Positions 5,165 to 47,800 of a DNA stretch of 64,000 nucleotides are shown here, piece by piece. The notes beneath the pieces are model-generated. The model was not told the origin of the DNA. It ran no database searches and saw only the letters and a program-made list of their open reading frames with translations. Origin of the DNA: Ulva prolifera (lineage: Eukaryota > Chlorophyta > Ulvophyceae > Ulvales > Ulvaceae); assembly GCA_023078555.1 (NCBI GenBank), contig CM041204.1, forward strand, positions 3,378,430 to 3,442,429, read 5' to 3'. Positions within the stretch are counted from its first letter, which is position 1. Each line of letters starts with the position of its first letter. Position numbers and translations under genes: made by a program.

Positions 5165-6925
5165 CAACTACTCCTCCAGTCAGTGTTGACCTGCTGGCTA
5201 TGGGTTGGTCAGCTCAGGTGTCCATGACAACAAGTAGTGCATAACGTGCAGAACGAACCTGCTTCTCGAGAGGCGCCTCACACATGCAACTAATCCTGCA
5301 TTCACATCCAGTCAGTGTTGACCGGCTGGTTGTGGGTTGGACAGCCCACGGCCAGGCCCAATAAGCAGTTCAGGCAGTGCAGAACGAACCTGCTTCTCGA
5401 GAAACGCCCCACACATGCAACTAATCCTGCATTCACCTCCAGTCAGTGTTGACCGGCTGGTCGTGGGTTGGACAGCACACGGCCAGGCCCAATAAGCAGT
5501 GCAAGCAGTGCAGAACGAACCTGCTTCTCGAGAAACGCCCCACACATGCAACTAATCCTGCATTCACATCCAGTCAGTGTTGACCGGCTGGTTGTGGGTT
5601 GGACAGCCCACGGCCAGGCCCAATAAGCAGTTCAGGCAGTGCAGAACGAACCTGCTTCTCGAGAGACGCCCCACACATGCAACTAATCCTGCATTCACCT
5701 CCCGTCCGTGTTGACCGGCTGGTTGTGGGTTGGATAGCACACGGCCAGGCCCAATAAGCAGTGCAAGCAGTGCAGAACGAACCTGCTTATCGAGAGACGC
5801 CCCACACATGCAACTAATCCTGCATTCACATCCAGTCAGTGTTGACCGGCTGGTTGTGGGTTGGATAGCACACGGCCAGGCCCAATAAGCAGTGCAAGCA
5901 GTGCAGAACGAACCTGCTTATCGAGAGACGCCCCACACATGCAACTAATCCTGCATTCACATCCAGTCAGTGTTGACCGGCTGGTTGTGGGTTGGACAGC
6001 ACACGGCCACGCCCAACAAGTAGTGCAGAACGTGCAGAACGAACCTGCTTCTCGAGAGGCGCCTCACACATGCACCTACTCCTGCATTCACCTCCAGTCA
6101 GTGTTGACCGGCTGGTTGTGGGTTGGATAGCTCACGGCCAGACCCAGCAAGCAGTGCAGAACGTGCAGAACGAACCTGCTTCTCGAGAGGCGCCTCACAC
6201 ATGCACCTACTCCTGCATTCACCTCCAGTCAGTGTTGACCGGCTGGTTGTGGGTTGGACACCTCACGGCCAGACCCAGCAAGCAGTGCATAACGTGCAGA
6301 ACGAACCTGCTTCTCGAGAGGCGCCTCACACATGCAACTAATCCTGCATTCACATCCAGTCAGTGTTGACCGGCTGGTTGTGGGTTGGACAGCACACGGC
6401 CACGCCCAACAAGTAGTGCAGAACGTGCAGAACGAACCTGCTTCTCGAGAGGCGCCTCACACATGCACCTACTCCTGCATTCACCTCCAGTCAGTGTTGA
6501 CCGGCTGGTTGTGGGTTGGATAGCTCACGGCCAGACCCAGCAAGCAGTGCAGAACGTGCAGAACGAACCTGCTTCTCGAGAGGCGCCTCACACATGCAAC
6601 TAATCCTGCATTCACATCCAGTCAGTGTTGACCGGCTGGTTGTGGGTTGGACAGCACACGGCCACGCCCAACAAGTAGTGCAGAACGTGCAGAACGAACC
6701 TGCTTCTCGAGAGGCGCCTCACACTTGCACCTACTCCTGCATTCACCTCCAGTCAGTGTTGACCGGCTGGTTGTGGGTTGGATAGCTCACGGCCAGACCC
6801 AGCAAGCAGTGCAGAACGTGCAGAACGAACCTGCTTCTCGAGATGCGCCTCACACATGCACCTACTCCTGCATTCACCTCCAGTCAGTGTTGACCTGCTG
6901 GTTGTGGGTTGGACAGCACATGCGG
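5165..6925. repeat. 131-bp tandem satellite array, 14 copies
   Basis: The landmark CAGTGTTGACC recurs near 5181, 5313, 5444, 5575, 5706, 5837, 5968, 6099, 6230, 6361, 6492, 6623, 6754 and 6885, a period of 131 bases. Each unit carries GAACGAACCTGCTTCTCGAG and GGCTGGTTGTGGGTTGG. Two sequence variants (CAACTAATCC or CACCTACTCC; CACGCCCAACAAG or CAGACCCAGCAAG) are partly interleaved in the second half, suggesting expansion by units larger than one repeat. 131 is not a multiple of three. The many overlapping short open frames, on both strands, are by-products of the repeat. Confidence 0.95.
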
Positions 6926-7529
6926 CGGAGTGGTGACAGAGGCAGACAGGGCACGCAGGTGTATTCATCCGCGCGCCGACCGGACAGTGGATAACATAGG
7001 ATAATCGATGCTTGGTATGCATTATAATACGGGATGTTTCGATGTGTCAGTCGCATAGGACGTACGTCAGATGGGCTGGGCTGCCAGTGTGTTAGCATGG
7101 CGGGATGTCAAGTGGGCTGTCCTGCGGTTGTATATTACACGCTGAGTGTCATATCACGGCCCTCCGCAGATGGTACAGATGTAGTGCAGGCCTGGTTCCT
7201 TTCGGTCGGTTCTTGTCCCGATCTGATCCCATCGCTCTGACATGGCGACGACGATCGCACCAGCGCCACGCTCGCTTTTGCGAGACTAGTCGTGGTGGTG
7301 CTCTCGTGAGCCAGATGAACGTTCACGTCGTCTTCTCGCCGTTGTCATACATTTTACGATTCGTCCCAATTAACCACCTTCGTTGGACCCAGACATCGTT
7401 CGTCACTTACACACGGCCAGGCCTTGGGTGCCTGCCAGTTGCAAGCTCGATTGGGGAATCCAATCATTACGGTTGCTGAAGTAATTTGTTGATGCTTCAA
7501 TGTGGCTGTCCTGGTAGCACTACAGTTGG
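6926..7529. other. Unique spacer between the two satellite arrays
   Basis: About 600 bases of non-repeated sequence lie between the arrays. Short open frames on both strands show no recognisable domain. I see no gene here. Confidence 0.5.
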
Positions 7530-9125
7530 GTCGGGTGTGATCTCCAGTCTCACACACACAGTCTGGAACTCAGTCGCATTGTGTCCTACACGACCAGGCA
7601 TCATGTGCATGGCCAGGCCTGGGGCCAGCCACCATCCCAATGTGTTGAATGATATACCTGGTGCTACTTCGCTGTACGCTGGGTGGGGAATCAGTGGGGG
7701 GGTCGGGTGTGATCTCCAGTCTCACACACACAGTCTGGAACTCAGTCGCATTGTGTCCTACACGACCAGGCATCATGTGCATGGCCAGGCCTGGGGCCAG
7801 CCACCATCCCAATGTGTTGAATGATATACCTGGTGCTACTTCGCTGTACGCTGGGTGGGGAATCAGTGGGGGGGTCGGGTGTGATCTCCAGTCTCACACA
7901 CAGAGTCTGGAACTCAGTCGCATTGTGTCCTACACGACCAGGCATCATGTGCATGGCCAGGCCTGGGGCCAGCCACCATCCCAATGTGTTGAATGATATA
8001 CCTGGTGCTACTTCGCTGTACGCTGGGTGGGGAATCAGTGGGGGGGTCGGGTGTGATCTCCAGTCTCACACACACAGTCTGGAACTCAGTCGCATTGTGT
8101 CCTACACGACCAGGCATCATGTGCATGGCCAGGCCTGGGGCCAGCCACCATCCCAATGTGTTGAATGATATACCTGGTGCTACTTCGCTGTACGCTGGGT
8201 GGGGAATCAGTGGGGGGGTCGGGTGTGATCTCCAGTCTCACACACAGAGTCTGGAACTCAGTCGCATTGTGTCCTACACGACCAGGCATCATGTGCATGG
8301 CCAGGCCTGGGGCCAGCCACCATCCCAATGTGTTGAATGATATACCTGGTGCTACTTCGCTGTACGCTGGGTGGGGAATCAGTGGGGGGGTCGGGTGTGA
8401 TCTCCAGTCTCACACACACAGTCTGGAACTCAGTCGCATTGTGTCCTACACGACCAGGCATCATGTGCATGGCCAGGCCTGGGGCCAGCCACCATCCCAA
8501 TGTGTTGAATGATATACCTGGTGCTACTTCGCTGTACGCTGGGTGGGGAATCAGTGGGGGGGTCGGGTGTGATCTCCAGTCTCACACACAGAGTCTGGAA
8601 CTCAGTCGCATTGTGTCCTACACGACCAGGCATCATGTGCATGGCCAGGCCTGGGGCCAGCCACCATCCCAATGTGTTGAATGATATACCTGGTGCTACT
8701 TCGCTGTACGCTGGGTGGGGCATCAGTGGGGGGGTCGGGTGTGATCTCCAGTCTCACACACACAGTCTCGAACTCAGTCGCATTGTGTCCTACACGACCA
8801 GGCATCATGTGCATGGCCAGGCCTGGGGCCAGCCACCATCCCAATGTGTTGAATGATATACCTGGTGCTACTTCGCTGTACGCTGGGTGGGGAATCAGTG
8901 GCGGGGTCGGGTGTGATCTCCAGTCTCACACACAGAGTCTGGAACTCAGTCGCAATGTGTCCTACACGACCAGGCATCATGTGCATGGCCAGGCCTGGGG
9001 CCAGCCACCATCCCAATGTGTTAAATGATATACCTGGTGCTACTTCGCTGTACGCTGGGTGGGGAATCAGTGGCGGGGTCGGGTGTGATCTCCAGTCTCA
9101 CACACAGAGTCTGGAACTCAGTCAC
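7530..9125. repeat. 172-bp tandem satellite array, about 9 copies, with 344-bp dimer structure
   Basis: GATCTCCAGTCTCACACAC recurs every 172 bases from 7539 (7539, 7711, 7883 and so on to about 9088). From 7711 to about 8920 successive units alternate between ACACACACAGTCTGG and ACACACAGAGTCTGG, so the unit last amplified was a 344-bp dimer. Copies are nearly identical, with a few single-base differences concentrated in the last three units. The roughly 115-residue open frames on both strands in every unit are repeat artefacts: 172 is not a multiple of three and they overlap each other. Confidence 0.95.
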
Positions 9126-9698
9126 AATGTTGATGTGAGTGCTGTCATCAACAAGGACTTAAATGTCGGCTAACATGTTGTACGAGCAAGTTGCCAATGG
9201 CCGGTGCCTATACACACTGAGACACTCGTTCGCCAAGTGGATGTGAGGCCCGGTCTAGGGTTGCCGAGTATACCAGCAGTGCGTCAGTCTTACAATTTGA
9301 TGGAAAACTTTGAATCACATCTTGGTCCATGCCACAGCTACAGTATGCATGGACCTCCAGCACTCCGTTACCCATTCGGCAGCTCAGCGATGTCACGGTC
9401 TACTCTCGCAAATCTGGAAAAACACCATCAGCAATGAATGCGGCCTTGACCTCACATATTGCATGATGGAACAAGACACAGGGGGAGGTGCCCTGATGGA
9501 GTGATTTGTGGCGCCCGATTATAGTATCCCGAGCTGCCAAGATGCTCTCCTCGCCTTCTTTCCTTTTCCTTCGAAACTTGACTGAAGCCCAACTACTAAG
9601 GGAGACCGGCAGTAAAGCCGCACTGAAAAGACAAGGTGTGTGAGGTGCAGTGTGAGTGGGAATGATTTATGTCTATGTAGCAGTGTCGATGAAGTAGC

Positions 9699-28850: not shown

Positions 28851-30789
28851 GCATCCCGTCCAAGGAAATTGAATACAGGCAGTGGTGGTATATATGTGGA
28901 GCGCTGCAGCAGATCTGAACCATTGGAGCAATCCGATTTTCAGTACAGCACATCTAGGAGCAATTTCGATGGTTCCAATGTTCTGCGACCTCAGGTCAGA
29001 CTCTCAGGTCTGAAATAGTTGTGTTTTCATCCATCGTTTTGAAGGAGCTTCTCCACAGATTGGTCGATTTCTTGATGCTTAGCTGGTGCCTTGCGCCAGT
29101 GTTTGGACGCCTGGAAAGTGCCTGGAAATTGCTCAGCTGACGGTTCAAGAGGCAGCCCTGCTGTGACCACAACACGCTGCCAATGCCAAGATGACCTCCT
29201 GTATCTGCACAGGAGCAGGTTCCATGGCGAGAAGTGTATCTCAAATTCCCCATGACGATCGAGTCCTGCTGGTCCGCATGTTCTAGCTACCTTGGTGCAT
29301 GGGTTTAAACTAATTAATTTCCTCCACTGCCGTTTCCCAAGCTTGGTGCAAGCCAGTCTGCGTTGGCTGTAAGTTGCACTGCATCTACATATAAGTGCTC
29401 TTGTATGCGGTCAACGGGCAACAAGGCTAGCTTCAGTGTGCAAAGTGCAATGCCTGCTGTCACCACGGAGACCCGGTCGCCGTGCCACGAGTCGTTGCCC
29501 AGGACGTCTGGAGTCCGCAGGTGCAGGACAACGACCACTTGCGTATTAAACGAACAAACTTGTGATGGCAAATTTTGGCGCTATCACTGAGATTGTGACT
29601 GCGTTCTACGGACTCGTGGGTGCAATTGATGACTTGCTGCAGCTCGGCCCTGCGCGCAGGCCTAGGCAGATCACTCGTCTGCAGCTGGAGGCACGCGAAT
29701 TGAACATGTGCAAGATTGGAATCGAGTTTGGTGATCTCAATTGCGTTGTAGCACGCTTGGTAGGTGTGTTTTGACCGCGAAGTGGATCGTCTGCGCTGCT
29801 GCTAGGAGATGGCCCGTCTCTCAGAGCGACATAGACCCTGCAACATGCAGCAGAGGCAGTTGATAGGTCATGTTCATTACCTAGTATGCGTTCAGCGATC
29901 ACTCCTTGCTGCTCATGCCGGCTGCTGCCCTGGGCATGTCGAGCCCTCCATGTGTTTGTGCTACCGACATTGTGCCCTTGTGCCTGGGCTATTATTGGCA
30001 AAGCTAATAAGTCAGCTTGTTCCGTCTGAACAGGACAATGTCGCCCTGCTGTTCTTCATGCCGCTGGCACATTCCATTCCACTGCGTGTGTGCATAGTCA
30101 CCCATCTTTGTGAACTAGCATTGACCACCTGAGCAAGTGCGATTGATCGAAGCGTCCAAGAAACATGCTGTTACTCCACCCGGCCAACAGAAGGGCACAA
30201 GTAGAATTTGCAAAGGGCCAACAGACGAGCTGCAGTGCTGACAGCACCATCGTCACCACCATCATCATCATAGCTACAAGTGCCCATCTGCTCACCAGTC
30301 AGCTCCTGTGGCATCACCAATCTAAAGAAGCTACGAGATCAGTTGATGCTCCCACTCCGCAAATGCAGAATCGTAGCTAGGTAGATCATTGTCAACCGTA
30401 CGAATTATCATGCACGCTGCTCACACGCCGCTGTCCCATATCACTCTCACATGTGCCTCTGCCATCACGTGGCTGCCAATCACTTCTCATCCATCATTCT
30501 GACATACCGCCGCCACAGCGTGGTCCGACGTCATGCTCATCCGTTCCTCCCATTTCGCCTATATCTATATCTCAAACAAGAGCTGTGCAACCCTCGCCTC
30601 AACACTTCACACACCTCATGCCATGGACAGCATTCATTGGCGTACTGCCAACTAACTAATCCGCAACGCTCCTGCTGCTCAGGCTCTCATCACAATCTCA
30701 ACTTCCACCACAACATCACAACAGACATGCCTGGCTGCATGAAAGCCGCATCCGCAAGCTACAGCCCACAGTGGTTATGGTGGGATTGC
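28851..30789. other. No confident gene
   Basis: One short plus-strand frame (29562-29774, 70 codons) is protein-like in composition but has no recognised domain. From 30.4 to 30.75 kb the plus strand is pyrimidine-rich. Nothing else is supported. Confidence 0.4.
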
Positions 30790-31205
30790 CTCACCTAGGT
30801 GCGCCACCAGGCAAGGTGCGCCACCAATGGGTGAGCTACTTTGTAAGTCACAGGTTGTCTCTCGAATCCACCTTAAATAGCATTCCTTGTAAATCATATG
30901 CCTCAAGGTGTCCATGTGATATGCTGATTGCAGGATTTGTTGCGCATGGAAGCATGTACGTAAGAGCGGGACTCAGTTCTCCTCACCTGCGGGGTGCGTC
31001 AATCGACAGGGTGAGCTAGGCGCGGGGGAGCCTGGTAACCAACTCCCCACATGTGGGCATATATCGGTGGCTGGGCACTACAATGACTTCGATCATGTCA
31101 AGTGAGTTGAAATGACTCCGATTCATGTGCAATGCACATCATTCAGTGATGCAGGGGTGTGCACCACTCACCCCACGGGTGAGCTGTTATGTATGGTGAG
31201 CCAGG
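30790..31205. repeat. Left subterminal repeats of the CACTA element
   Basis: GGTGAGC occurs at about 30830, 31010 and 31178 with a variant at 31193. CTCACC partners sit 15-35 bases upstream of three of them (near 30791, 30987 and 31163), forming inverted pairs. GTGCGCCACC occurs twice at 30800-30825. Such clusters flank CACTA termini and bind TnpA-type proteins. Confidence 0.5.
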
Positions 31206-32363
31206 CTGCATGAGCCAAGGCCACCAACACGCCAGGCCTCAACAAGCTTCAAAGCATGTGAAGCAACTGGGGAACATGAGTATTTGATGCGTGGACATGA
31301 GGGGTACCGGTCCACCGATGCGCGGTGTGCTGAACACTGGAGTTGCTGATCAGCAGATATATGCAGTGATGTCAATCATCTCTCCCTTTGGGAACTGCAT
31401 CATGGAGCCGCACACATGGGTTCAGTGCTAGTAGAAGGATTGCTAATTGATATATTGCAGGACTTGTACTGTGCATACTGCCGTGGAGAGTCAAGTACTT
31501 GAGTGCCAACCAATACACGGAGTGCAGCTGCATCATATTGAATGATCGGTGGTGTGCACTTGAGATGACGAGTACCTCGTCCCCACATTGAAGCGGTCCA
31601 CATTCGGCCAGGTTTAGAGATGTGAATTGGTGTGTGATGTCACGGAGATTATGTTGCGTGTAAGCTGACGCAGCTCAGGCATAGCTACGTGTTGCTCGCG
31701 AAGCGCTGTGCTGCTCCGGTCTCGAGATGCAACATCAGGGAACGTTGGCGGGGATTTTTTAAATGCCATACCTAAATCATACTCAAGGTCGTCGCCGGGC
31801 CTGCCAAAACTGATCCACCGATGTATTGATGTCATTCACCAGCCGCAGGACTCGACCATCACGCTCTATTATCTAGATGCGTGGAGTGGCTCCGGCAATT
31901 CGCCGTTTTGAAGAATTAATTAAGCTCTATACGCTGTACACGGCGATTTTTTCTACCCCGCGCGATCCGCCCTTGACATGCCCGCTCGCAAGGGAGCCAA
32001 TACGGCCGCGGGTGCAGGCAGAAGTGCTGTATCGGTCACTCAGCTTCACCCGCTACTGCATGGTATTAGCGGTCACACCATAATCCAGCATTTTGACATG
32101 TACGTCTTTGTCAACCAAATGCAGCTACATCTACTTCCTGCCGCTGATCGAGGCCATGTACGACGCCATCGCTGAAGGTCCCTCGCATTGCGTGGCTGTG
32201 GGTGGTTTAGTTCCAGAGTGCGTGCGCGATGCGATCGTCTGAGTCACGTCGACGTTTGGTACGAGCCACTTGGAAATTATTTGTGGTTGTCTAGGGCACG
32301 ATCTGTGTCCGGAGAATGGCGTAGTATTAGCGATAGCAGAAACGTCGTCCATGGACGCAGTCA

Positions 32364-35300
32364 ATGGCAAAGAAGAGGTCGAGATCTCAGTCGACAGAGG
32401 AGCCAGCGAGGGAAGAATTTGTGAGTCTTGCATACGGCTGGTTCTGGTGCAGAAAGTGCGGCAAGAAGGTTAGACATACGGGGCACCTGAGTCGACATCT
32501 CATTTCCAAGACGCACAAGCGCAACGTTCTTCGCGTATCAGATGGTGGAGAGTTGTTTCCCATAGCTAATGTGGTCACGCCGGAGCGTTGTGTATATGTT
32601 GCTGCAGGTGGCGACGCCAGTGCTCAACATAGACAGCCATCTCCGCCATTACCCCAGCATGATGACCTTAGTGATCCTGTTGGCCCATATTCAAGACCAA
32701 TAGGGTCTTCAGACTTGAATATATTATTTACACCAGCTGTCAGCGACGCTGAGGACGAAGGGCCCAAGCTACCACCATACGTACCACCCCCAGGTGATGA
32801 GCAGCAGTCAGAAGAGACATTCGCTGTTGTGCCCTTGTCTTGGGAGGTTGATGACACAGCCGCCACAAAGTCAAGGCCTCTTCCTGAGGCTGTCAATGGA
32901 GAGGATGATGCACAATATGCGGTCAGTCCACGTTACTGTGTCCAGTGCAAAAGTTTCCCAGTCGTTATGACACTGCATCTCTTTACAATCTTACACTCAT
33001 TTATTTATTCTCTAGATCGTATCCAACAGTACCAAGGTCACGCTCTGTGCGGTGCAGGATGTGGCCAGCCTCATCCGATTTGGAGAAGATGAGATCCGTG
33101 CCCGTGGAGGGGTCGACGTTGCTGCAGTTTTGGAGGCCGCCTTATCGCAAGGTCTCCAGGCTGCTCCGGATGTCAGTATGCAGGTTCTCACTGCTGAGCT
33201 ATTGTACCGCATGGATCTGCAGAAGGCTGCGCAACTGAATGAGGGGTTGCCACCTCCTCGACCATACACGGTGCGATGGTATCAAGACAACGCGGACGAG
33301 ATTGTGGCATCTGGGAGCACAATCACAGTCCGCCAGGCCTGCTTTTGCCTTGCCGCACTGAAATTGCGCGGTGGTATGACGCGAAGGGCGTTTGATGACT
33401 TATGCAGACTGTTGTCCATCGGAGGATTTCTGAGTGGCGACACCAATTTCATGCCTCGGTGTGTCCCCGAGTTTTGTTGCCTGCACAACCATTGTACATG
33501 TATGTGATGCTGCAATGATGTGCTGCTTGAGATGCACCCACACAAGACATTGTGTGTGACATATAGTAAACATCGTAGGTCTGAACATCTAATCAATGGG
33601 GTGTTGTGCCTCCAAGGTCCGGATGCATATGCATGGGATTTGTGTGACAATGGGCAATGCCCGACTGTTTATGGTCGATCGTTACCAATGGCTGAGAGAC
33701 GCTTGAGGCACGGCGAACGTTGTGTCAATTGTGGAAACCTGCGCTACTCAAAGAGGAACAATCAACTGCAGCCTGCACGGAGGTTTGTTCACCTCCGTTG
33801 CCATGTCATGTATGCACCCTGCATGCATTTATTCATGTGCACTTTCGCACGTTTGCAGTGCTTATATTCTCAAGCTAGACGACGTAGTGAGACACATGTT
33901 TGGAGTCGAGATGTTTGCACGATTCGCGGGCACGCGCACACGAGCCATGTTGGACTCTCCGGTGTACAAGCGTCTTGATGAAGTGCACGGCCACGTCATC
34001 TCAGCCCTGTCCAGCCAGGTCTCCGAGCACCCAGGTGACTCGGGCCTTGCTTCCCCAGAAGTGGCTGGGCCTTCCACCGCTGCAGCCGCACCGACATGTA
34101 GACCGGAGGATTTTGTGGATCCCGATCCTAGCGACGAAATCATGACAGCTTCTGGCGATGTCTTGACTTTGTGTTTTGCGTTATTTGTGGATGGTGTCCA
34201 GCTTCACCAGCACGGCAGAGCGACAACAACAGTTGTGGGCATCAAGTGCCTTGATCTACCCGGCTTCCTCTGCAACACAGACTTAGCATGCTATCCACTA
34301 GCTTTTATCGGAGGGGAGAAAGAGCCCTCCAATTTGCAAGAGTTCATGTTAATCATTTTGAAGCAGTTCAAGGCTCATGAACCCAATGGTTCTGTTGACA
34401 AAGATGGTATGTGTGCGGGAGCCATTGCTCCCCGGCCTTCTTCCCTGTCACTTCACCATAGGAGCGATGTGGTGCTTCTAGCACAGTGTTGTGATCCATG
34501 CGTGCTGGCATTGCAGGAAAATATGTGGTGGAAGGCCTTCCCATACGGGTCTGGGACACTTATAGGCGGAAATGGCGGCAGGTATATCCTGTCTTCGTCT
34601 TTGCTTTCGCAGACACCCCGGCGAGGCGAGGATGGGCTTTGACAACTGGACACACTGGGTTCAGTGGTTGTGACAGATGTGGCATTCGAGGCATTCGCCT
34701 GCTTCCCGATGGAATCAAGCTAAACTGGACGGCTTTTGCTGGATATTACCGCCCTTGCACTGCCGTTATCCCCGACATAGACACCACCGTGCGGCACTCT
34801 TGTGCATGGTGCTGAATCAACTTGTCGTCTTACTGGCATAAGCTTGTTCATCTGTATGCAGAAAAAGCGCACCAAGAAAGTGAAGGTTGGTAAAAAGTGC
34901 GAGCAGAAGGAGAAAACCATTAATGTGCAATTCGGGAAGAACGGTCAGCCTGACCAAGCTGCGTTGCAAAGTGTCTTGGTCGATGATGTGCAGCACCGCG
35001 CCCGCAGCACCAAGGCCCTCAACATCACCAAACAAGCTGAGAAGAAGTATAAATTGCCTGAAATGGCAAGAGACGGCGGCCAGCACTCTGCAAACCCACA
35101 CACAAGAGAGCAGAGACGACTCACACGAGGTCCGTTTGCCCCTATTCGTATTGATACTCACGCATGTTGTAGTGGTAACCCTCGTCATCAGTTGATCATG
35201 TTATTCAATGGGTATCACATGCCTGCGTGTACAATTGCATGTAATCTCTAATCGCTGTGCCGTTGACTTCAATTCACGCTGGTGGTGCAAGCCATAAGCA

Positions 35301-37218
35301 ACACGTCACTGCAGCGACGTGTCTTCTTATCTCGGGTATGCAGATGTTGACTGCGGTGTGCACGATCTGTGCAGATTGCGAAGCAGCCTGGGACTCGCGA
35401 TATAATCATGCCAACGAAAAACACAAGGAGATTGGGTGTCGCGGAGTGAATCCGTTCCAATTGAGCGGCTTGTTGGGATACGAGTAAGCGCTATGGTCGA
35501 CTGATTACTTGGAGATGCTGTCTCTTGCGCTGTCAAGGTTAACTTTGTTTGTATGCAGTTTTCAATTGACTTTCGTGGATCCCATGTCGCACTCAATACT
35601 GTACAGCCTACTTCGTAACTTCATGGAATTGATTTGCAACACCACGAACGGCCTCGAAGTTGATGGCATGGGGTTCTTCCTGGCAGGCCAACTGCAAGAT
35701 CGGATGGACACTTTCAGTGAGAAATTTGAGTATCCAAGTGCATACAATCGCCGCCCACCGAAATTCCGTCGGTAAGCCTCACTTCTCCAAGAATTCAATG
35801 TAATCGTGGCTATCCATGTTCAACTCCATTGACTGCAGGGGAATCCCATTTTCAAAGTGGCTCTTTGAAGAGTTGAACACCGGTGTGGAGATTACCATTG
35901 CCATGATCATGTACGTAGCAAGATCAGAAATTCATCCAGGGATCTTGAAGATGTGGGCCCATTTGCGGAAGTTCACTTTGTACTTCCTACACTATCGACC
36001 AGGGCAACACACCGACGCACAGATTTTAGACGCACAGAGGGAATTGTTCCAATTTGGTGAGTATGCAGAACAACACTTGCATTGCAAGTCCTTGACATGT
36101 CTTGTCCACCGTTGCTTTGCTCACATACCTCAGCAAGTCATGGCCACGTTGCCTGGAGCGTATCTACGTGAGGATTGGGGAGAGAGAATGATTCGTCACA
36201 CGAAGGGCGCAATTACTGGACATGCAACGAAGCACGCAGCAAGAGCATCTGCCGGCGTATGTCTGGTTGAAATGGGGCTGCGCGCCAACCAACAGCAACA
36301 CCCGTCCATTGATGAGCCTTTGCGCGCAATTCGTCCGACACCGTCACCACGACCAAAGGACACGGGCGACGACTATGGCACCTTGCTGCACACCCTGTCA
36401 CCTGCCTACACCGGCGAAGATCGAGATGAGGTGTGTAATTGTACTAGCATCCGTGCAACGTGTTATGTGGCCCAATTTGCAGTGACAACCGCACTGTACC
36501 TACTGTCTCCAGATTTGCATGTTTTCAGGTGAGTAGATTCGCCAAGTGCCTCACGGAAATGGCAGATAGGGCAGGCAGAGCTCACAGAGTTGAAGGAGAA
36601 CTGGAGATAGCCGGTAAGTTGAAAGCAGAACATATCAAGGGCACTAAGAACAGACAGAAAGGCGGCATTGACCATGAAGATGATCAGAAGGCTGAAGTGC
36701 AGTGCTCAGACTCTGCGACCATTCATCGCGGAGCATTTGTAGTCCGAACTGCGGTCGGCACCAAGGCATATGGGCGTACCCACTCAGATCAGTATGTGTA
36801 TGTTCCCTTCCGGGCTGGTGCGGCACACAATGCATGTGTGATGCGTATCAGTCAACTGTTGCTAGTGAAACGGGCGGGTATGGGCTGGCCGAATGACGAG
36901 GCCAGGTTTGCAGTGGGGAAAATGTGGGACCATCTTGCTGTGAGGAAGGGTGTCGGATTGGAGACTCACTTCAACGATGATCCAGCATTAGGAGCATGTA
37001 CCATCCCGAGGGCCCTTTTCTTGGCACCAAAACGGCGTAGAATGGGCTATAGGATTGCAGTTTTTCTGCGACAGATTCACTGTCCTTGTGTGTACATTCC
37101 TGACCCGGCTGGTGACACCTTCATGACAGTGGGGAAAATGGGATATCATGGTAGGATGGACTTGCAGTGGGAGTCCGGGAGTTGGCTCCCATGTGATGAA
37201 GATTGCGATGAGAGGTAA
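32364..37218 (+). CDS. Tnp2-like CACTA transposase, ten exons, 1298 codons
   Basis: Exons: 32364-32921, 33016-33458, 33579-33782, 33859-34406, 34517-34788, 34862-35129, 35375-35483, 35559-35771, 35839-36430, 36529-37218. The sum is 3897 nt, divisible by three, and all nine junctions agree in phase. The N-terminus starts MAKKRSRSQ (basic) and has a C2H2 finger (CRKCGKK...HLSRHLISKTH, about residues 30-55). Then come the Transposase_21 blocks: MTRRAFDDLCRLL; WDLCDNGQC...CVNCGNLRY; LTLCFALFVDGVQ...IGGEKEPSNLQEF; VWDTY...FAFADTPARRGW followed by the Cys-rich TGHTGFSGCDRC; VDPMSHSILYSLLRNF; and HRCFAHIP...GERMIRHTKG. The C-terminus has a further compact domain (DQYVYVPFRAG). The acidic candidates in FVDG, VWD and FADTPA fit the family, but catalytic residues are not proven. 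Donors are mostly GTRYGT or GTAAGC and most introns are 67-120 nt. Confidence 0.85.
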
Positions 37219-37295
37219 TCACGGTCTTGTGTAATTCATAAAGAAAATACAACTCAGTAGCTTCTAGTCGTGTGTTTGGGCTTCTGTTGGCCGTG

Positions 37296-37847
37296 TCATA
37301 TTAACCTCAGAGCCGACATATCTCTGTCACCGTCGCCGTCAAAGGCACAATGAGCACAATTTCGTCCCTTTGGGAGATTCAAAGCAGCCTCTGAGCTGTC
37401 CGTAGCGACAGGCTTGCAGAAGTGTGAGATTGCAGTGCTGTGGGCACGGTGCAAGTCACTGCAGCACACGGCCATGCACTGCATCAAGGTCTGATGCTGC
37501 TTCTCTGTCATCCATGCATAAACATACTGGTGACTCTGCCTGCCAAAGTTGAGATCCAAATTCCAAGCAGCCTCTGAGCTGTCCGTAGCGACAGGCTTGC
37601 AGAAGTGTGAGATTGCAGTGCTGTGGGTACAGTGCAAGTCACTGCAGCACACGGCCATGCACTGCATCAAGGTCTGATGCTGCTTCTCTGTCATCCATGC
37701 ATAAACATACTGGTGACTCTGCCTGCCAAAGTTGAGATCCAAATTCCAAGCAGCCTCTGAGCTGTCCGTAGCGACAGGCTCGCAGGACAGTGAGATGGCA
37801 GTGCTATGGGTATACAGGCACAGCATGATCGAGGCAACTATGTGCAC
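37296..37847 (-). repeat. 183-bp in-frame repeat, three copies, inside an antisense open frame
   Basis: Between the two CACTA genes a 183-bp unit is repeated twice in full with a third partial copy (landmark AGCAGCCTCTGAGCTGTCCG near 37384, 37567 and 37750). 183 is 61 codons, so a minus-strand frame of 183 residues reads through all copies (repeated phrases AISHFCKPVATDSSEAAW and QYVYAWMTEKQHQTLMQCM). Differences between copies include amino-acid changes and show no preference for silent positions, so coding is doubtful. It could be a 3' region repeat of the transposase gene. Confidence 0.6.
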
Positions 37848-38559
37848 TAATGATTTTCAGTATTGTGAAAGTGAGCGGGTATACCCCTGGTACACGGTGT
37901 TGCATTGCAAGCGTCGCTTGGTTGCTTGAACAAACACCAACTTGCCGTGTTGCACTACGCAGGGACGATACGTATGTACATATTCAGGCACGACCAAGAG
38001 TAGTAGAGAATGTTGCACTCACGATAGGAGGAGTCGTAGGTGTAAGGTTGGAACAACACAGACGCAGACAATGCCAATTCAACATCTGCAGACAAGGGTT
38101 CATATGAGTCATATGACTCATGGAAACCGATGCTTCCATATATAAGCAGAAGCCTAGCATCTGGCAAAGGTGCAAACATATTCCATGAGCATGTCGAGGT
38201 GGATATCCACTCATTTGTCCCCGCAATTGTGAATGAGGACAGACACGTCGATATACAAAATACCAACGTTATTCATCATTCATTAGAGGTACTTCTTACA
38301 TCGTTGACTGAATGGATCCGTGTGCCCGGAGTAACATCATGAAGGCACATCACTGCAGCTCAAGCTAGACGCTACATACAGCCAGTTGCGTTTGATGTGC
38401 ACAATCTTTCAAAATTATTGACTACCCATTTCACATTGCACATGTCGATTATAAACTCATGATCGTGTAAAAAAATTTTGAAAATGAGTGCACACGAAAT
38501 TGTGTTCAATGCCTCATGCGCTGAAGGTCGGTGGCTACGAGTGCATCAGGCCGACCAGC

Positions 38560-38892
38560 TCAATCACTAATTGCAAGGCGATGAGGACTGAGCGAATCAA
38601 TTTCAGAATACATGTGCACGTAATCATGCACAAAAGCGTCAGTGAGTGACCATGTTTCCAATCCTGGCACATACATTTTGCGTCCGTTAAACATCGAGAT
38701 GAGGGGGTGTCTATAGCGGCCCGGGCAACGTCCACGCGCTTGTTCGAAATGCCAGTTCGAATGATGCGTTTGGATTCCAAAAGCAGCACAAGCGACCACG
38801 GCACACGTGAGCCATGCAACTCCCTTGTAGCTGTACAATCCCAATTGTATTGCGGCGTTATAACTTACATGTTCCAAAGAGACCGTTGCCAT
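38560..38892 (-). CDS. Possible short antisense frame, divergent from the second CACTA gene
   Basis: A minus-strand frame from the ATG at 38892 runs 110 codons to a stop at about 38560. Its ATG overlaps the plus-strand start at 38891. The sequence has a hydrophobic middle and ends GLETWSLTDAFVHDYVHM. No domain is recognised. It may be chance; the stretch also has to hold the promoter and leader of the plus-strand gene. Confidence 0.2.
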   Translation of the reverse strand: MATVSLEHVSYNAAIQLGLYSYKGVAWLTCAVVACAAFGIQTHHSNWHFEQARGRCPGRYRHPLISMFNGRKMYVPGLETWSLTDAFVHDYVHMYSEIDSLSPHRLAISD

Positions 38893-41800
38893 GGCAGAGC
38901 AAGCGCCACCTCCCCGAGTGAGGGACTTGACAGCTCTAATCGTGGTGATAGATGACAAGGAGCTGCATATTTCGCTTTTGAAACGCAAGAACGTTTCGGA
39001 GGAAGACTTCCTGACCAGTCGTGCTGCCGAGTTTGGACGCAAGGTCAACTCACGATGTTTCCGGCAGTATCACAGTGTTGCAGGTGCACGTGAAGTCGAC
39101 GACCACTCTGTAGATGAGATCTTTGAGTCGCAAGTTATTATCCCGTACGAGCAGAAAATGCTATGGCCACATGCGGTGCACGGCACGACAGGTGTCATCC
39201 GTCTAGATCCGCCGCGGTCCGGGGAGACTGTGCCGTCCTCAACAAGGCAGAGCCAGCAAAGCGGCAACCGAATTGTGAGAAGAGCTGCTCAGGTGCGTGC
39301 CGTGATCGTCTTCGGGCGAATCTCGTTCAGGCAGCGCGTGATTGTTAGGAGCCGATGATTGGCATTCAATCCAACATCGGAATTTCGATGTTGAATGAGC
39401 CGCACGGTGCTTGCAGGCTGAAAAGGAAATGAACATCAAGCTGCAACTTTTCATGCCTCGCGTTACGGTTGCAGCATTCACTTATGCGGTCATGCACCTG
39501 CCCATTTCGAAATTCGCCACTCTCCCATCACTTGCCTTGGGAGCTGTGATCTCAAGCCACATCCGCAAGCTGCTAAGGGATCCGGAGGTTGATGCATGGA
39601 ATCTGGAGGAAGCAATCGCAAGGCTGACGCCAGAGGTATGGCCGACTCAGAATGTTGTGAAGGAGGAGGAGCAGCCGGTGGCGCCAAGGGCAATCTACAC
39701 CGAGGCCACTGCGCTCTCACTTTGCGCTGCTGCAGGAAGTCGAAGGCCTGAAGCAATTCCGAAATGCGTGGTCGATTAAGAAGAGCCGGACTGAGATTTT
39801 GAGAATGGTGTTTCAATACATCGACAGATGTTGCGAGCATGAGCTGAAGCCCGATGCTGCCAAGGAAGCCAAGGCCGCTTTCAGACAGGTATCCAAGGTC
39901 ATTGACACCGACAATTCAAGAAAAATACGGACCTCATGTGATCTTATCTTCTTGTCATGGGCTCAGGTCCTGCAGAGGACTGAAAATCTGGAAGATTTGC
40001 TGACAGAGGAGCCATGGGAATTTTCGGTGGATGACCGAAAGCCGATCGTCGAGGGCCTGCAAAAGGCCATTGACGAGCTCGCAGCTTTCAAGAAGCCACT
40101 GGGCGCGAAAAAGTACCGAGAAGAGACCAGAAAAGCGGTCAGTGGATTGGCCACATCCAAGAAGACTGGTGTCGTACGTGATCTATATCTGACACCACAC
40201 CACATGATACAGTTGTGCTCAATGTAGCAAATGTCATGTACAAGGATGTCTTGTATGCAGGGGCTGCGGGCTTTGAAAGCGGAGTTTGGAGACATGTTGC
40301 AATTTGATAAGACGCTGGACGGGGCACTCGATGCAACCATGCCTGTTGGCAACTCGACGCAAGAGCTGCAGAAATATGAAAATCTACAGGCATGGGGTGA
40401 CGATTGGGGAACCCCCTTCTACAGCACAGATAAGTCTCCGCTTTACCCCATCTACCAACAGCGTTCTCTGCAAAAGCCTCAAAATCAGACCGAGAAACAG
40501 CTGCTTGAAAAGCCAGAAGAGTTCACTCTGAAAAGGCTCTTTGCTGCATCTGGTCAGAATGTCAGCGCCGGTTACATGCTCTTCCAGACACGGCATCCCC
40601 TGCTTGTATGGACAGTTCCAGTGCCACAATTTGATGGACAGTCGCGAGCATATTCACACGAGTCCGCCGAGACGGACATTGATGCAAATTCTGACGAGGA
40701 TCAGTTGCCCGATAACCAGCCCTCGGGACAGCGGGTGCCCCCAACATCCCGCACCAGTATCGAAGGTCCGAGGTCAGGCCACCTGCATGTGGCGGGTGTC
40801 TTGATGCTGAATTGCATCGTGCCATACGTGGTACGATTTCGAATGCATCCATGGGCGATGCCCCGGTCGTGCCTGTGTCACTAGCTACGCACCGAAACCA
40901 ATGTGAACGGCGCTCACAAGAGAAGAAAATACACGCAGGCTGCCCTATTCAAGATCCATGGGTTGCAACCTCCGCACGAGCTCATAAACTTCACTGAAGC
41001 TCTCAACACAACAGTTCCATTGAGACCAAGCCTGGGGGCACACCAAGAGGCTGACGTGGCAGATGATGAAGATTCAGATGGAGCAGAGTTTGAATCCGAC
41101 CATGAAGACGGGGAGCCTAAACAGCAGGCAGCAGCAGCAACAGTGAACTTGAGGGCAGAAAGAAGAAGCCGTCGAGGCAATGCCCCAAGGAAGTCGCCAT
41201 TGCAGGGGTCATCTGCTACAGCCCGGCCAACGGGTGTGAACTCAGCGTCAACAGGATCTGGGATCTCGAGGAAGCGCAAGGTGGTCAGCGTGGCAAAGCA
41301 GTCTACCCATCTATCAAGTGATGATGAAACTGCTGCGGTATGTCCACTGCTGTTTATGAGTGCACCGGACAGATGTGACTACTCATGCCTGTGCCCGTCC
41401 CCAAGGCAAACTCGAGTGCGGCACTTACTTCACAGCATAGCCGGTGGCACTGCAGGAGCCAGACACCGAGGAACATGAGATTGCACCAGCAGCTGCGGTT
41501 GCCCCGTCTAGGAGGAAGCGCAAGGTGGTCAGCGTGGCAAAGCAGTCTACCCAGCTATCAAGTGATGATGAAACTGCTGCGGTATGTCCACTGCTGTTTA
41601 TGAGTGCACCGGACAGATGTGACTACTCATGCCTGTGCCCGTCCCCAAGACAAACTCGAGTGCTGCACTTACTTCACAGCATAGCCGGTGGCTCTGCAGG
41701 AGCCAGACACCGAGGAACTTGAGTTTGCACCAGCAGCTGCGGTTGCCCCGTCTAGGAGGAAGCGCAAGGTGGTCAGCGTGGCAAAGCAGTCTACCCAGCT

Positions 41801-43280
41801 ATCAAGTGATGATGAAACTGCTGCGGTATGTCCACTGCTGTTTATGAGTGCACCGGACAGATGTGACTACTCATGCCTGTGCCCGTCCCCAAGGCAAACT
41901 CGAGTGCTGCACTTACTTCACAGCATAGCCGGTGGCACTGCAGGAGCCAGACACCGAGGAACATGAGATTGCACCAGCAGCTGCGGTTGCCCCGTCTAGG
42001 AGGAAGCGCAAGGTGGTCAGCGTGGCAAAGCAGTCTACCCAGCTATCAAGTGATGATGAAACTGCTGCGGTATGTCCACTGCTGTTTATGAGTGCACCGG
42101 ACAGATGTGACTACTCATGCCTGTGCCCGTCCCCAAGGCAAACTCGAGTGCTGCACTTACTTCACAGCATAGCCGGTGGCACTGCAGGAGCCAGACACCG
42201 AGGAACATGAGATTGCACCAGCAGCTGCGGTTGCCCCGTCTAGGAGGAAGCGCAAGGTGGTCAGCGTGGCAAAGCCGTCTACCCAGCTATCAAGTGATGA
42301 TGAAACTGCTGCGGTATGTCCACTGCTGTTTATGAGTGCACCGGACAGATGTGACTACTCATGCCTGTGCCCGTCCCCATGGCAAACTCGAGTGCTGCAC
42401 TTACTTCACAGCATAGCCGGTGGCACTGCAGGAGCCAGACACCGAGGAACATGAGATTGCACCAGCAGCTGCGGTTGCCCCGTCTAGGAGGAAGCACAAG
42501 GTGGTCAGCGTGGCAAAGCAGTCTACCCAGCTATCAAGTGATGATGAAACTGCTGCGGTATGTCCACTGCTGTTTATGAGTGCACCGGACAGATGTGACT
42601 ACTCATGCCTGTGCCCGTCCCCAAGACAAACTCGAGTGCTGCACTTACTTCACAGCATAGCCGGTGGCTCTGCAGGAGCCAGACACCGAGGAACTTGAGT
42701 TTGCACCAGCAGCTGCGGTTGCCCCGTCTAGGAGGAAGCGCAAGGTGGTCAGCGTGGCAAAGCAGTCTACCCAGCTATCAAGTGATGATGAAACTGCTGC
42801 GGTATGTCCACTGCTGTTTATGAGTGCACCGGACAGATGTGACTACTCATGCCTGTGCCCGTCCCCAAGGCAAACTCGAGTGCTGCACTTACTTCACAGC
42901 ATAGCCGGTGGCACTGCAGGAGCCAGACACCGAGGAACATGAGATTGCACCAGCAGCTGCGGTTGCCCCGTCTAGGAGGAAGCACAAGGTGGTCAGCGTG
43001 GCAAAGCAGTCTACCCAGCTATCAAGTGATGATGAAACTGCTGCGGTATGTCCACTGCTGTTTATGAGTGCACCGGACAGATGTGACTACTCATGCCTGT
43101 GCCCGTCCCCAAGACAAACTCGAGTGCTGCACTTACTTCACAGCATAGCCGGTGGCTCTGCAGGAGCCAGACACCGAGGAACTTGAGTTTGCACCAGCAG
43201 CTGCGGTTGCCCCGTCTAGGAGGAAACGCCAGACAAGTAGCCGACGCAGCAAGCCTCCTAAGCGAGGCAACAAATCATAG
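38891..43280 (+). CDS. Second CACTA gene (TnpA-like role inferred), 14 exons with a seven-fold repeated exon
   Basis: Exons: 38891-39292, 39417-39635, 39736-39888, 39967-40173, 40261-40830, 40939-41337, then seven 126-nt exons starting at 41456, 41700, 41944, 42188, 42432, 42676 and 42920, and a last exon 43164-43280. All 13 introns are phase 0, giving 982 residues. Residues 1-650 are charged and helical with no domain I recognise. The repeated exon encodes 42 residues: an acidic start (EPDTEEHEI or EPDTEELEF), AAAVAPS, a basic patch RRKRKVV and a Ser/Asp end (LSSDDETAA). Exon 6 ends with the same module (RKRKVVSVAK) and the last exon ends in a lysine/arginine-rich tail. Position beside a Tnp2 gene suggests a TnpA-like DNA-binding partner. 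Exon 5's donor (GTACGA, 40831) is the least certain. Confidence 0.8.
41212..43240 (+). repeat. 244-bp exon-plus-intron tandem repeat, eight introns
   Basis: A 244-bp unit is repeated, each copy being a 126-nt exon and a 118-nt intron (donor GTATGTCC, acceptor CACTGCAG or CTCTGCAG). Donors lie at 41338, 41582, 41826, 42070, 42314, 42558, 42802 and 43046. Because 118 is not a multiple of three and 126 is, the frame is kept only if every intron is removed. Exon variants run HEI, LEF, HEI, HEI, HEI, LEF, HEI, LEF from exon 7 to exon 14. Copies 11 and 13 share a Lys-His-Lys change and copies 12 and 14 share LEF, so a 488-bp pair was duplicated last. Confidence 0.9.
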
Positions 43281-44863
43281 AAAGCAGTGCACCTTAAGTA
43301 CGCATCTCAGAGCCTCCAGATGTGCCAATTGGTTAACCACCTGCTCTCATGTCTACTTTTACGCATGCAGGATCTTACGTTGACGTAATTAAACATGCAG
43401 TTGCAATTAATTGTTGCTGATGTCAGCGTTGATGCAGCCTGCAAACGTACGGAGGTAGCAACACACAACAAGATTCCGCAGTGCTGTGGACTCCGCACGT
43501 CAAGGCAGTGGCGCTATCAGTCTTCATTTTTTCTATACTTGTTTTAGACTGGATTGTCTGTGTGGCGCCTGTGTGGGGACTGGCGCAGAGGGACCCCCAC
43601 GCAGGCAGATAGTGGCTGGTGGAGGGCAGTGAACGTTGTAACAACAAGCATACATGCCCAGATAAACAATAGCAGCATTACCGCGATCAATTCCTTCTAA
43701 TTTCAGCTGCAATCAACAGTTTGCGCACCTGCGACGCGCACCCCTGCGATGGTTGCTCACGTGCAGTGGCGAACTTGGCGGGTGAGCGACCGTTCGGGGG
43801 GAGCCGGCATGCGTTTAAGTGCGCCAGTGGAAGTGAGCGACAACGTATGAACCCAGATGCACATCGTGCACTCTACTGATGCGATGTCCAACAACGCATA
43901 CGACCTCAAAGGTACTATCACAATACATCACCGCATCCCACAATCCGGCAAGCAGTGGTGGACGTGCAACAGTTTCACCGCACGCGCGACAAGCTGGACT
44001 ATTCAGCGCAAAGCAAGGCAGCACCGCACATTTTTTTTAATGCATGAATATTGGTACTCGTGGGCCGTAGTATTGTGACCGGCGACGGGCCCACAGAATC
44101 ACTCGACACAAGCATGCAACCACCACGCTGCTATCTGAAGGTCGAGGCGCCACAGATATATCGATTTACTCCAAGCAGTGTTCACGCACTGTCACAGCTA
44201 TTCATGGATGTAGTTTCCAGTCCACCTAGTGGGCCGGGAGAGGTGCCGACTTGGTATGACACAGTATGCCATTACACTTGCAACGCTCCAACTACAATGA
44301 TAATCATGGAGAGAATCAAAGGGCTACACACACAAATACATAGATACGTTAAATTTGACATCTGGACGCCTCCGGAACAGAAATCGGTGATTCGGTGGCC
44401 AAATGTTGTCGTGATGTTCAATCATGCATGACATCCAAGCACCCAGATGAAACGACCATGCGGACAACAGTATCCAGTAATCGCCCGTGGAATCATGCTA
44501 GTTAGACTACAGAGCGTTTTATGTTGCATGTGAGCCCTGCACGACCACATGAACGCTCGCCTCGCTTGCAATACCCAGCGACACACCATGGAGTAGCGGG
44601 GCTAGGAGCGTTCAGACGATCGCAGAACACTTCGAAACGACGCGTCAATACAACTGAATTGATATCATATATCTCGCCAGGGTCATTTGTGCACCTCCCG
44701 CTGTCTTTGGAACGAGCTGCTCGATGATCATGCAAACACACACGCACACATGAAGTGACACTGCTACCTCTTTCCTTCGCCAACACACCCCGGATTGATT
44801 GTACATTGTTCCACATCGAACCTTGTATCTTAATATTGCATTTGCGTCTCGTTTAGAGCTGTT
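43281..44863. other. Right end of the CACTA element and adjoining sequence, no confident gene
   Basis: The first 570 bases should be the 3' region and subterminal repeats of the transposon (motifs at 43756-43842). A plus-strand frame at 44051-44431 (from an inner ATG at 44114, about 105 codons) has a protein-like composition but no recognised domain. Nothing else is supported. Confidence 0.4.
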
Positions 44864-47800
44864 TTAAAGAACTTTCGGATCGCGGATTCGTCGCGCACCC
44901 TCAGTGGCGCACCCAGGGTGAGTGACTTGCACGTAGCTATAGTGCCACCACTGCTGCTCATAGCCGCTGATCCAGACAGGGTCCTCACACAGCAGAGCCC
45001 CCTCACTGTCAAACTCCTCACGTGTTCCGCTGTCGGTGGCCTCCGACCCAGCAGACCTGGACGACCCATGTGAGGCACACAGGTGTGAGGGCCATACCGG
45101 TGCCACTGATTCGGCCCAGCTTACGTCGTCTGGTGCCATCAGCGCCTCCTCATGCGCTCCCCTGTAGAGCGTCTCTGACCCCGTATCCATCTCTGAGAAC
45201 CCCGCTGCTTCCCAGCCCACATGTACAGGTGTCGCCGCCAGAGTCGGTGGCCCGTCAAGCAAGAAGCAGGCCGCATCAAAGCGCACGGAGGCGGGTGGTG
45301 CCACACCGGACATCGCGTCCGCGGCCTCCGCGGCGCTCACAGCCGGCACCACCGCCCGAGGGGCCTGCGACATCGCCTCCCCGGCCTGGTCATCGATCCG
45401 AGCCGGGGCAGCATGTGGAGCGCTGGCAGCAGACGCAGCGGCCGCACTCGCCTCCTCCGCGGTGGCGGCCTGCACTTCTTGTGCGGCGGCCGGCTGCAGC
45501 CACAGCAGCAGCTGCTGCGTGGAGGACACCGCGAGGGCACGGGTGTCGAAGCGGAGGCCGTGCGCGGCCAGCAGCGCCGCGACGCCCGCCCCCTGCGGCG
45601 CCCAGCCTTCGAACTCCCCCTACACTCCCGCAGCCGACGTCAGCGCGCCTGCGTCCACTTACATCATGTACAAAATCCAGCCGCTTTTATTCATGTCCAG
45701 GTGAATGCGGCAGTGTCGCATGCACGGTGAACGGGGTGCGGGCCGCGTTGACTTGCAGGTGAAACACAACCACGCCTCACATGATCGGCGTGACCTACAG
45801 TCCGGCAACAGCGCAGAAATCAGGGCACGCGGTGAGAGGACGGCGCACCGGCTCCTGTAGCGGTGCAGGCTCGTATGGAGCACATGCGTCCGCGGCGGCC
45901 CCAACGCGCCCGGCCGCGGTCCGGCGGGCTTTGCGGCTGGGACCCGCATCCGCCAGTGAGCTGCGCACGTGGTTGTGGCCGGTGAGGCGCAGGATGAGCA
46001 CGTCCGTCTGAGTGTGGAGCTCACCCGCCCATGCATGCAGCACGTCCGCGGCGGAGGCATCTGTCATCGCGTGAGATCGCTTCGTGGACCCCCCTGCACC
46101 GTACTCTACGATGATCAGCACCATCGCTGATCATCAAAGGAGCTGGGCCGGCAGCAGTGACCGCTCACGGACAACAGACAGATCCGAACACTGCAGGCAA
46201 CTGCATGGCCTATAGCTGCCTGTACTGGCGCACACCACCATCACATGCGTTGGTAGCAGCAAAGCACAGCTGCCACGGGATCAAGCCGGACGGACCTCCT
46301 GCTGCGTTTGACTTTGCTGCTTCCTCAGTGATGTCCTTCAGGCATATTTCTGTCACTTCGACCACAGTCTTTTCGAGCAGCGGCACCCCCCGCAGGCTGT
46401 GGTCACGCGCTGCCAGCCGCTCCTCCGCCAGCCGCCCAAGCGTGTCCTGCAGTGTCCATGGTCCTGCCACCGCAGATGCGCAGCGCCCGTGTGGACGAAA
46501 CAGCCGGTGGCGCCGGCGCGGGGCGTGGGGGCTTGCACGACGCCGCGCCGCTGCAGCTCCGCCGCAAGATGCTTGTACCATGCCAGCAAGTGGTCCTGTG
46601 TGACTTGCGGCGACACCGCGTGTCCATGGCGGTCCACCAGCGGCAGCTCCCGCCGCAGGATCCAGCTGTGCGCTTCCTGCATGCATGCGCAGGTGTCAAG
46701 GCATCCGGAGAGCTGAGGGCAGCGAGGGGTTGCGGAGGGGGGGCGGGGGCGGGGACGCCAGCACCTTACAGTCGGGGCCGCACCTTACTCATGCGCGGAG
46801 CGCAGGCGGCCAGCAGCACCATGCGGAAGCCATCCTCCTGCCGCAGGGTGACGTAGGCCGAGAGGAGCGCTTGGTAGAGGCGTGCGCGCTCCGCAGCGTT
46901 TGCATCCGTGGCCGCTTGTGTCTCAAGCAGCTGCGCCGAGTCGACCCAGTCGATGATAATTGTACCCCTGAAGGCGGCCGGGGCCTCGTTCCCGAACTCC
47001 TGCAGGTGCTGAGATGTCAGCGACCCGCCGGAGGCCGCTCAGCCTGAGGAGCTCAATGTGTGGTCAAGGCGGGGGGGTTGAGGGTGGCTCAGGGGCGCAC
47101 TCGAGCCTGGACGAAGAGCTCCAGGTTCTCGCCGGCTCCTCCCGGGCTTTCCTGGAAGAGGGCAAAGACAACCCTTCGGCACGGGATGATTGCCTCGCTC
47201 TCCTCGTCTGGGCGCCTGCGCCTGAGGCTCTGCAGCCGGTCGTCTGTTGCCGGGTCGTCCGTGTACGCCCGGCACAGCACCTGCGGGAGGTCACAGCTGG
47301 TCTCTGTGCGCTCCAGCTCCCGCACGCAGAGGCCTCTGATGTCGGAAACTCCACGGGCGCGCTGCTTCTGAACATGCGCCAGTATCTGCATGCGCGGTGG
47401 TGTTGATCAGCGTACAGAACGGTGTAGGGGCAGCTGTTACGGCTAGCGTGGCTACAGGTTGAGCATGGGCGAGCCGGGGAAGGGGGACGCACATCCTGTT
47501 CCAGGCGCTGTGAAAGTCTTGTAAGGGGCAGTTCGCGCGCACGCAAGGTGGCCGCCTTGAGGCGGGTGGTCTTCGTGTTGCGCATTGCAGCGGCGTCGTT
47601 TGCGGTGCAGGTTGGGCATGCGCAGTGCACTGGGTCGCCGGGGTTGCATGTGGCTGTGTTGGTGCATGTTGCGTGGAACGAGGTCACGCAGCCTTCGGTG
47701 CTGCAGTCCTCGAGGGGATGGCTGTGTTTGCGGCGCTTGCCGCAGCAGATGCAAAGCCGGTCCGGCAGTGAATATTCGATTACGGACCGGACTGTGTGGC

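Follow-up and report, generated by a model that had tools for sequence, protein, structure and literature searches.

A probable spliced coding minisatellite in an accessory gene of a multi-copy DNA transposon of Ulva prolifera

In a 64,000-nucleotide stretch of the Ulva prolifera genome (GCA_023078555.1, contig CM041204.1, positions 3,378,430 to 3,442,429 of the forward strand; hereafter the window, the numbering of which is used below), near-identical predicted introns alternate with near-identical short exons, which raises the question of what kind of sequence this array is, how it came into being, and whether it is read as protein. The host of the array, which the first-pass annotation of this DNA did not describe, is a multi-copy DNA transposon of ~14.2 kb, in which the array closes the second gene at its 3′ end. 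We consider it quite probable that the array is a spliced coding minisatellite within this second (accessory) gene, derived from a duplication across an ancestral intron.

Structure of the array and of its gene

In the window copy of the transposon (W), eight GT-AG introns of 118 nt alternate on the plus strand with seven exons of 126 nt (42 codons) between 41338 and 43163, followed by a related terminal exon of 117 nt with its stop at 43280 (Table 1). TRF returned a single array of period 244 at this locus (41268–43229, 8.0 copies, 98% matches, score 3791), and the intron donors fall at 41338 + 244n (n = 0 to 7) with the acceptors 118 nt further on, in full agreement with the eight introns, seven exons and related last exon of the first-pass annotation. 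Its assignment of phase 0 to all array introns likewise holds in our exon model; phase 0 is, however, found at every intron of gene 2, within the array and outside it, and is thus not peculiar to the array. Exons of 126 nt between phase-0 introns also support the earlier claim that the frame survives any whole-unit change, such that the gene would tolerate the gain or loss of units.

Gene 2 of W is predicted to encode 994 residues, 294 of which lie in modules. The modules had been described as basic, and this stands for the single RKRK cluster of the module, which we take to resemble a monopartite nuclear localisation signal, but not for the overall charge, as the module is net acidic (pI 5.1, charge approximately −2). 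The last exon is basic (pI 10.9).

Table 1. Predicted features of the window copy of the transposon, with the two ends of the array written out and the repeated units given by their offsets.
Feature	Position	Strand	Basis
Transposon copy W, ~14.2 kb	30767–44944	+	BLAST similarity to other copies, unrelated flanks, CC/CC 2-bp flanking repeat
Left terminus, reads CACAGTGG..., with CTCACCTAGGTGCGCCAC	30767–30836	+	
Right terminus, reads CACTATAG... inward, with CTCACCCTGGGTGCGCCAC	44875–44944	-	
Gene 1 region, putative transposase (approximate limits)	32337–37218	+	ORF fragments
Second tandem array, 183-bp unit, between genes 1 and 2	37377–37812		TRF, copy comparison
Gene 2 exon 1 (predicted)	38891–39292	+	Exon model
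Gene 2 exon 2 (predicted)	39417–39635	+	Exon model
Gene 2 exon 3, query for homologue search	39736–40173	+	67 genome matches
Gene 2 exon 4 (predicted)	40261–40788	+	Homology in relatives
Gene 2 exon 5; its tail, RKRKVVSVAKQS..DDETAA, is one of the module's two parents	40939–41337	+	Relatives, exon model, alignment
Array intron 1, 118 nt; repeats at +244 x 1 to 7	41338–41455	+	
First of the seven internal exons, 126 nt; the other six follow every 244 nt, the last ending at 43045	41456–41581	+	
Array intron 8	43046–43163	+	
Last exon with stop, basic C-terminus; the module's second parent is its initial 62 nt	43164–43280	+	

The comparison of unit number with other copies of the element, which the first-pass annotation proposed, showed that the number differs, with array introns numbering eight in W, four in copy A (C9:1.11 Mb), nine in copy B (C2:9.41 Mb), two in copy C (C3:4.42 Mb) and one in copy D (C2:3.17 Mb). 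The unit has at least 24 genomic matches, and the 24 obtained all lie within these five loci; a protein search with the module gave 29 matches, again all in the same five loci and none beyond. Pooled over the five copies, the 24 introns all begin with GTATGT and 22 of them end with CTGCAG, the exceptions being the second intron of the broken copy C (CTGCAT) and the sole intron of copy D (117 nt, CCGCAG). All 19 internal exons are 126 nt in length without stop or frameshift, nearly all modules hold an RKRK-like cluster, and the protein sequence of the last exon is identical among the five copies save for single residues. In W, A and B, exons 1–5 contain neither stops nor frameshifts, whereas C and D are broken copies, their exons being disrupted by indels or an insertion. 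Depending on the copy, the predicted proteins would thus carry from 0 to 8 extra 42-residue modules.

More distant relatives bear on the age of the intron and on splicing. Among the exon 3 matches, 57 have no internal stop, and the stronger ones beyond the five close copies (E up to ~1e-12) show 29–46% identity. We then considered 57 of the 67 exon 3 rows (without the weakest nine and the row for the second piece of copy C) together with the strongest 57 of 149 gene-1 matches. For 47 of these 57 homologues, a same-strand gene-1 match lies no more than 15 kb upstream, at a distance of 4.1–5.9 kb in 39 cases, and for ten there is none; the downstream control gave 5. By these comparisons, gene 2 is a real gene. 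Fourteen homologue stretches were fetched, and an exon-5 match is present in 11 of them and absent in three. Inspection by eye of four (L050, L052, L054 and L055) gave a phase-0 GT-AG intron followed by one short last exon ending in a basic run. A scripted search, which is lenient and leaves the exact junctions uncertain, found the last exon in 10 of the 11 at 0–1 of 200 shuffles and failed for L060 (27 of 200); the match in L064 looks like chance, and script and eye differ on the donor in L050 and L055 and on the last exon in L058. TRF found no 244-bp array in any of the 14 stretches. Relatives with one intron and no array imply an old intron and a recent array, and argue that one intron is the ancestral state; the one-intron state of copy D may be either ancestral or contracted. 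As most of the more distant homologues examined have a single phase-0 intron ahead of a basic last exon at the corresponding place, splicing of the array units, which the first-pass annotation had presumed, is also the likely reading here.

The host transposon

The limits of W were set by BLAST against the same 88.9 Mb genome, in which similarity to copy A begins at 30767, similarity to A, B and D stops at 44944, and the flanks are unrelated. Flanking repeats of 2 bp are seen in W (CC/CC) and D (AT/AT); none was seen at copy A, and copy B lacks the left end. The two ends of the element share only an internal stretch near the terminus, about CTCACC..GGTGCGCCAC. The motif GGTGCGC occurs near the left end, at distances of 32 and 49, and in inverted form near the right end, at positions 14127 and 14141 of the 14178; three further occurrences lie inside the element (a short motif, counted without shuffles). 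Gene 1 contains a 53-residue fragment with more than 50 genome matches above 50% identity and is, judged by position and copy number only, a putative transposase; going by its position only, gene 2 would be a TnpA-like helper of this protein.

Domain searches gave little further guidance. Pfam searches of single exons and hand-joined pieces of both genes returned only matches far below the cut-offs, phmmer against solved structures returned chance-level matches only, and Rfam returned nothing in the element at gathering thresholds. The KDZ transposase domain (PF18758) had no match in this genome, nor in the 14 control genomes. The Transposase_21 profile (PF02992) had one weak match elsewhere in the genome itself, with the 14 control genomes likewise lacking a match. 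Compared with CACTA (En/Spm) elements (PMC2613891), the element has a similar pairing of a putative transposase gene with an accessory gene (TNPD and TNPA in En/Spm), a CACTA-type right end (CACTATAG) and a candidate repeated motif near the ends. It differs from these elements, which have CACTA/CACTG inverted-repeat termini, in its CACAG left end (CACAGTGG), in flanking repeats of 2 bp rather than 3 bp, and in that Transposase_21 found no match at E ≤ 1 in the exon pieces of the genes, which were partly hand-joined. The element is thus CACTA-like in layout, but we do not class it as CACTA, because its flanking repeats are not the 3-bp duplication and Transposase_21 was not found, the latter being a weak test.

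Several further features of the element family were observed. The second tandem array varies among copies as well, with three unit starts in W, five in A, four in B, three in C and three in D, and a minus-strand frame of 186 aa is open across it (37296–37856). The intergenic segment 37813–38890 of W is only ~92% like copies A–D, against ~96–99% in the adjoining parts, which suggests exchange with another element lineage. Gene 1 of copy A holds an insert of ~4 kb (C9, ~1101.4–1105.4 kb), the flanking matches of which overlap by 6 bp, resembling the target duplication that a nested element would leave, and the coordinates of a copy on C1 suggest a comparably sized insert at the corresponding point of its gene 1. 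Left-half copies lie at C1:9508153 and C10:1591841 (left end 99–100%, gene-1 fragment 98%). One stretch downstream of the former matches 35673–37810 and the 183-bp array, without gene 2 being found, and one stretch downstream of the latter gave no DNA match to the element and no gene 2.

Origin and turnover of the repeat unit

The first-pass annotation ascribed the array to tandem amplification of a complete exon-plus-intron unit. Tandem amplification is borne out, but the unit is not a complete exon with its intron, as the ends of the duplication fall inside two exons and the internal exon is a chimera of both. In an alignment with copy D, the opening 62 nt of the internal exon correspond to the last exon with one mismatch and the remainder to the tail of exon 5, also with one mismatch, the two parental matches overlapping only in a shared GGAGGAA. 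The parental sites in D lie 243 bp apart, which is the unit length given that the intron of D is 1 nt short, and both encode RKR in the same frame, which makes the fusion exon symmetric and keeps it in frame.

These data can be arranged into a sequence of steps, the support for which differs. Comparison with the relatives provides the starting point, an ancestral gene that would have had one phase-0 intron followed by a short basic last exon. Well supported is the subsequent step, in which similar in-frame stretches flanking the intron (TCT.GGAGGAA.CGC, RKR) would have recombined or slipped inside GGAGGAA, duplicating the intervening 244 bp and creating, at one stroke, a fusion exon flanked by two copies of one intron. 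Unit counts and shared variants then show that exchange between units expanded, contracted and homogenised the array independently in different copies to give between 1 and 9 introns. Finally, removal of these introns by the spliceosome would yield accessory proteins with 0 to 8 additional 42-residue modules.

The comparison of A and B (in which B lacks the part left of 32197) provides insight into how the array changes. Outside the arrays, an alignment of the two copies over 10,468 bases has 13 mismatches (4/3476, 1/1698, 2/1078, 0/2434 and 6/1782 by segment), and yet they contain four and nine introns, respectively. Judged from unit-specific variants, B looks like an A-like array with repeated two-unit blocks and small departures. 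Within W, a single type of variant is shared by units 2 and 6 and by the final intron and exon, indicating exchange along the array. The best reading of these observations is that the array is an unstable minisatellite, in which unequal exchange expanded the initial duplication.

Selection, rival explanations and known systems

Between W and A, exons 1–4 differ by 22 synonymous and 14 nonsynonymous substitutions (pN/pS 0.19; p ~1e-6 against the neutral expectation), and in exons 1–3 of W and D pN/pS is 0.24. By this substitution pattern, the predicted core of the gene is under purifying selection in the W–A comparison. The comparison of A or B with the broken copy D (exons 1, 2, 3 and 5) gives 0 synonymous and 6 nonsynonymous differences, and thus no purifying selection on the core in that pair. 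The modules behave differently from the W–A core. Distinct variants number 15 across the 19 exons of 126 nt and 9 across the 23 introns of 118 nt, such that the internal exon is no more conserved than the intron. Thirteen of the exon variants are nonsynonymous and two synonymous, which is compatible with neutrality (p 0.26) and differs from the W–A core (Fisher p 0.002), although these tests are rough since distinct variants were pooled over related copies. The two synonymous variants both belong to copy C, which is broken, and restricting the count to W, A and B leaves 8 nonsynonymous and 0 synonymous. This pattern means that the modules are not visibly constrained, and that selection provides no demonstration of their coding use.

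A functional array, in which selection would act on the number of modules, or exon skipping would vary it, so as to adjust the dose, binding or nuclear import of the accessory protein, is in our view unlikely. It would fit the intact frame after every whole-unit change, the RKRK-like cluster in nearly every module, and the larger arrays of the intact copies W, A and B (8, 4 and 9 introns) relative to the broken C and D (2 and 1), but five copies are too few to tie array size to intactness, the stretches of the relatives have no array, and the modules have the neutral-like variant pattern described above. For the same reason, together with splice sites that are nearly uniform, the functional ladder of proteins generated by exon skipping that the first-pass annotation envisaged finds no backing here. 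A more specific proposal, that of a self-adjusting helper protein in which recombination between units shifts the number of modules in frame from one insertion to the next, and in which variability or long arrays are themselves selected, is somewhat less likely still; if true, the helper could be retuned faster than through point mutation. We hold it to be equally doubtful that the repeat is a non-coding minisatellite, with intron 1 retained and translation stopping after exon 5 such that the array is 3′ untranslated DNA. With intron 1 retained, the frame does meet a stop at 41478, the unit evolves like a minisatellite with its exon part as variable as its intron part, and the 183-bp array of the same element varies too; however, most relatives examined have the last intron and the basic last exon, the near-identity of the last-exon protein across the five copies is not what this reading predicts, and the 19 internal exons contain 0 frameshifts or stops, an argument that is weak at such low divergence.

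Two explanations centred on the intron itself were rejected. Introns can be created by tandem duplication of exon sequence that contains AGGT, and a tandem duplication does exist here, but diverged relatives already have an intron at that place and copy D has the intron without the duplication, making such an origin highly improbable. Least credible of all is the spread of the 118-nt intron into repeated exons as an introner-like element: near-identical introns within one gene would be expected from it, but the sequence is confined to the five transposon copies (24 of 24 matches, at least 24 in total), and exons and introns repeat together with the same period.

The preferred reading, a spliced coding minisatellite, has parallels in known systems. 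Protein-coding VNTR units can contain both exons and introns. As in such VNTRs, unit number would alter protein length, but here the unit is 244 bp with one small exon each, and variation is between transposon copies rather than alleles. What was found here corresponds to the marks of both a coding VNTR and a tandem exon duplication, in that homologous exons and introns stand in tandem and their number varies among copies of the element. Tandem exon duplications (PMC9013439) similarly place homologous exons side by side within a gene, together with homologous introns; the present case differs from them in that the act of duplication created the repeated exon as a chimera, that near-identical units lie in a transposon gene and differ in number among element copies, and that we see no sign of mutually exclusive use. 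Introners (PMC9860276) share the many near-identical introns, but those described here are not dispersed, as the search located them solely in the array of this element family. A title-level, non-exhaustive literature search found no report of a transposon gene with a repeated exon–intron unit.

The locus is a well-resolved example of the origin of a new exon, since one genome displays the one-intron state, the breakpoint and the expanded states (1, 2, 4, 8 and 9 introns), and with them the path from a small duplication across an intron to a new phase-symmetric exon and on to a variable exon array. The 4-to-9 difference between A and B at ~0.12% divergence makes the tempo of array change measurable. 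Should module number matter for transposition, this would be a rare tunable transposon protein; should it not, the array would provide a clean neutral baseline for the evolution of exon arrays. Outside the element, the window contains two further tandem arrays, one of 131 bp x 13.3 at 5173–6920 and one of 172 bp x 9.3 at 7528–9130.
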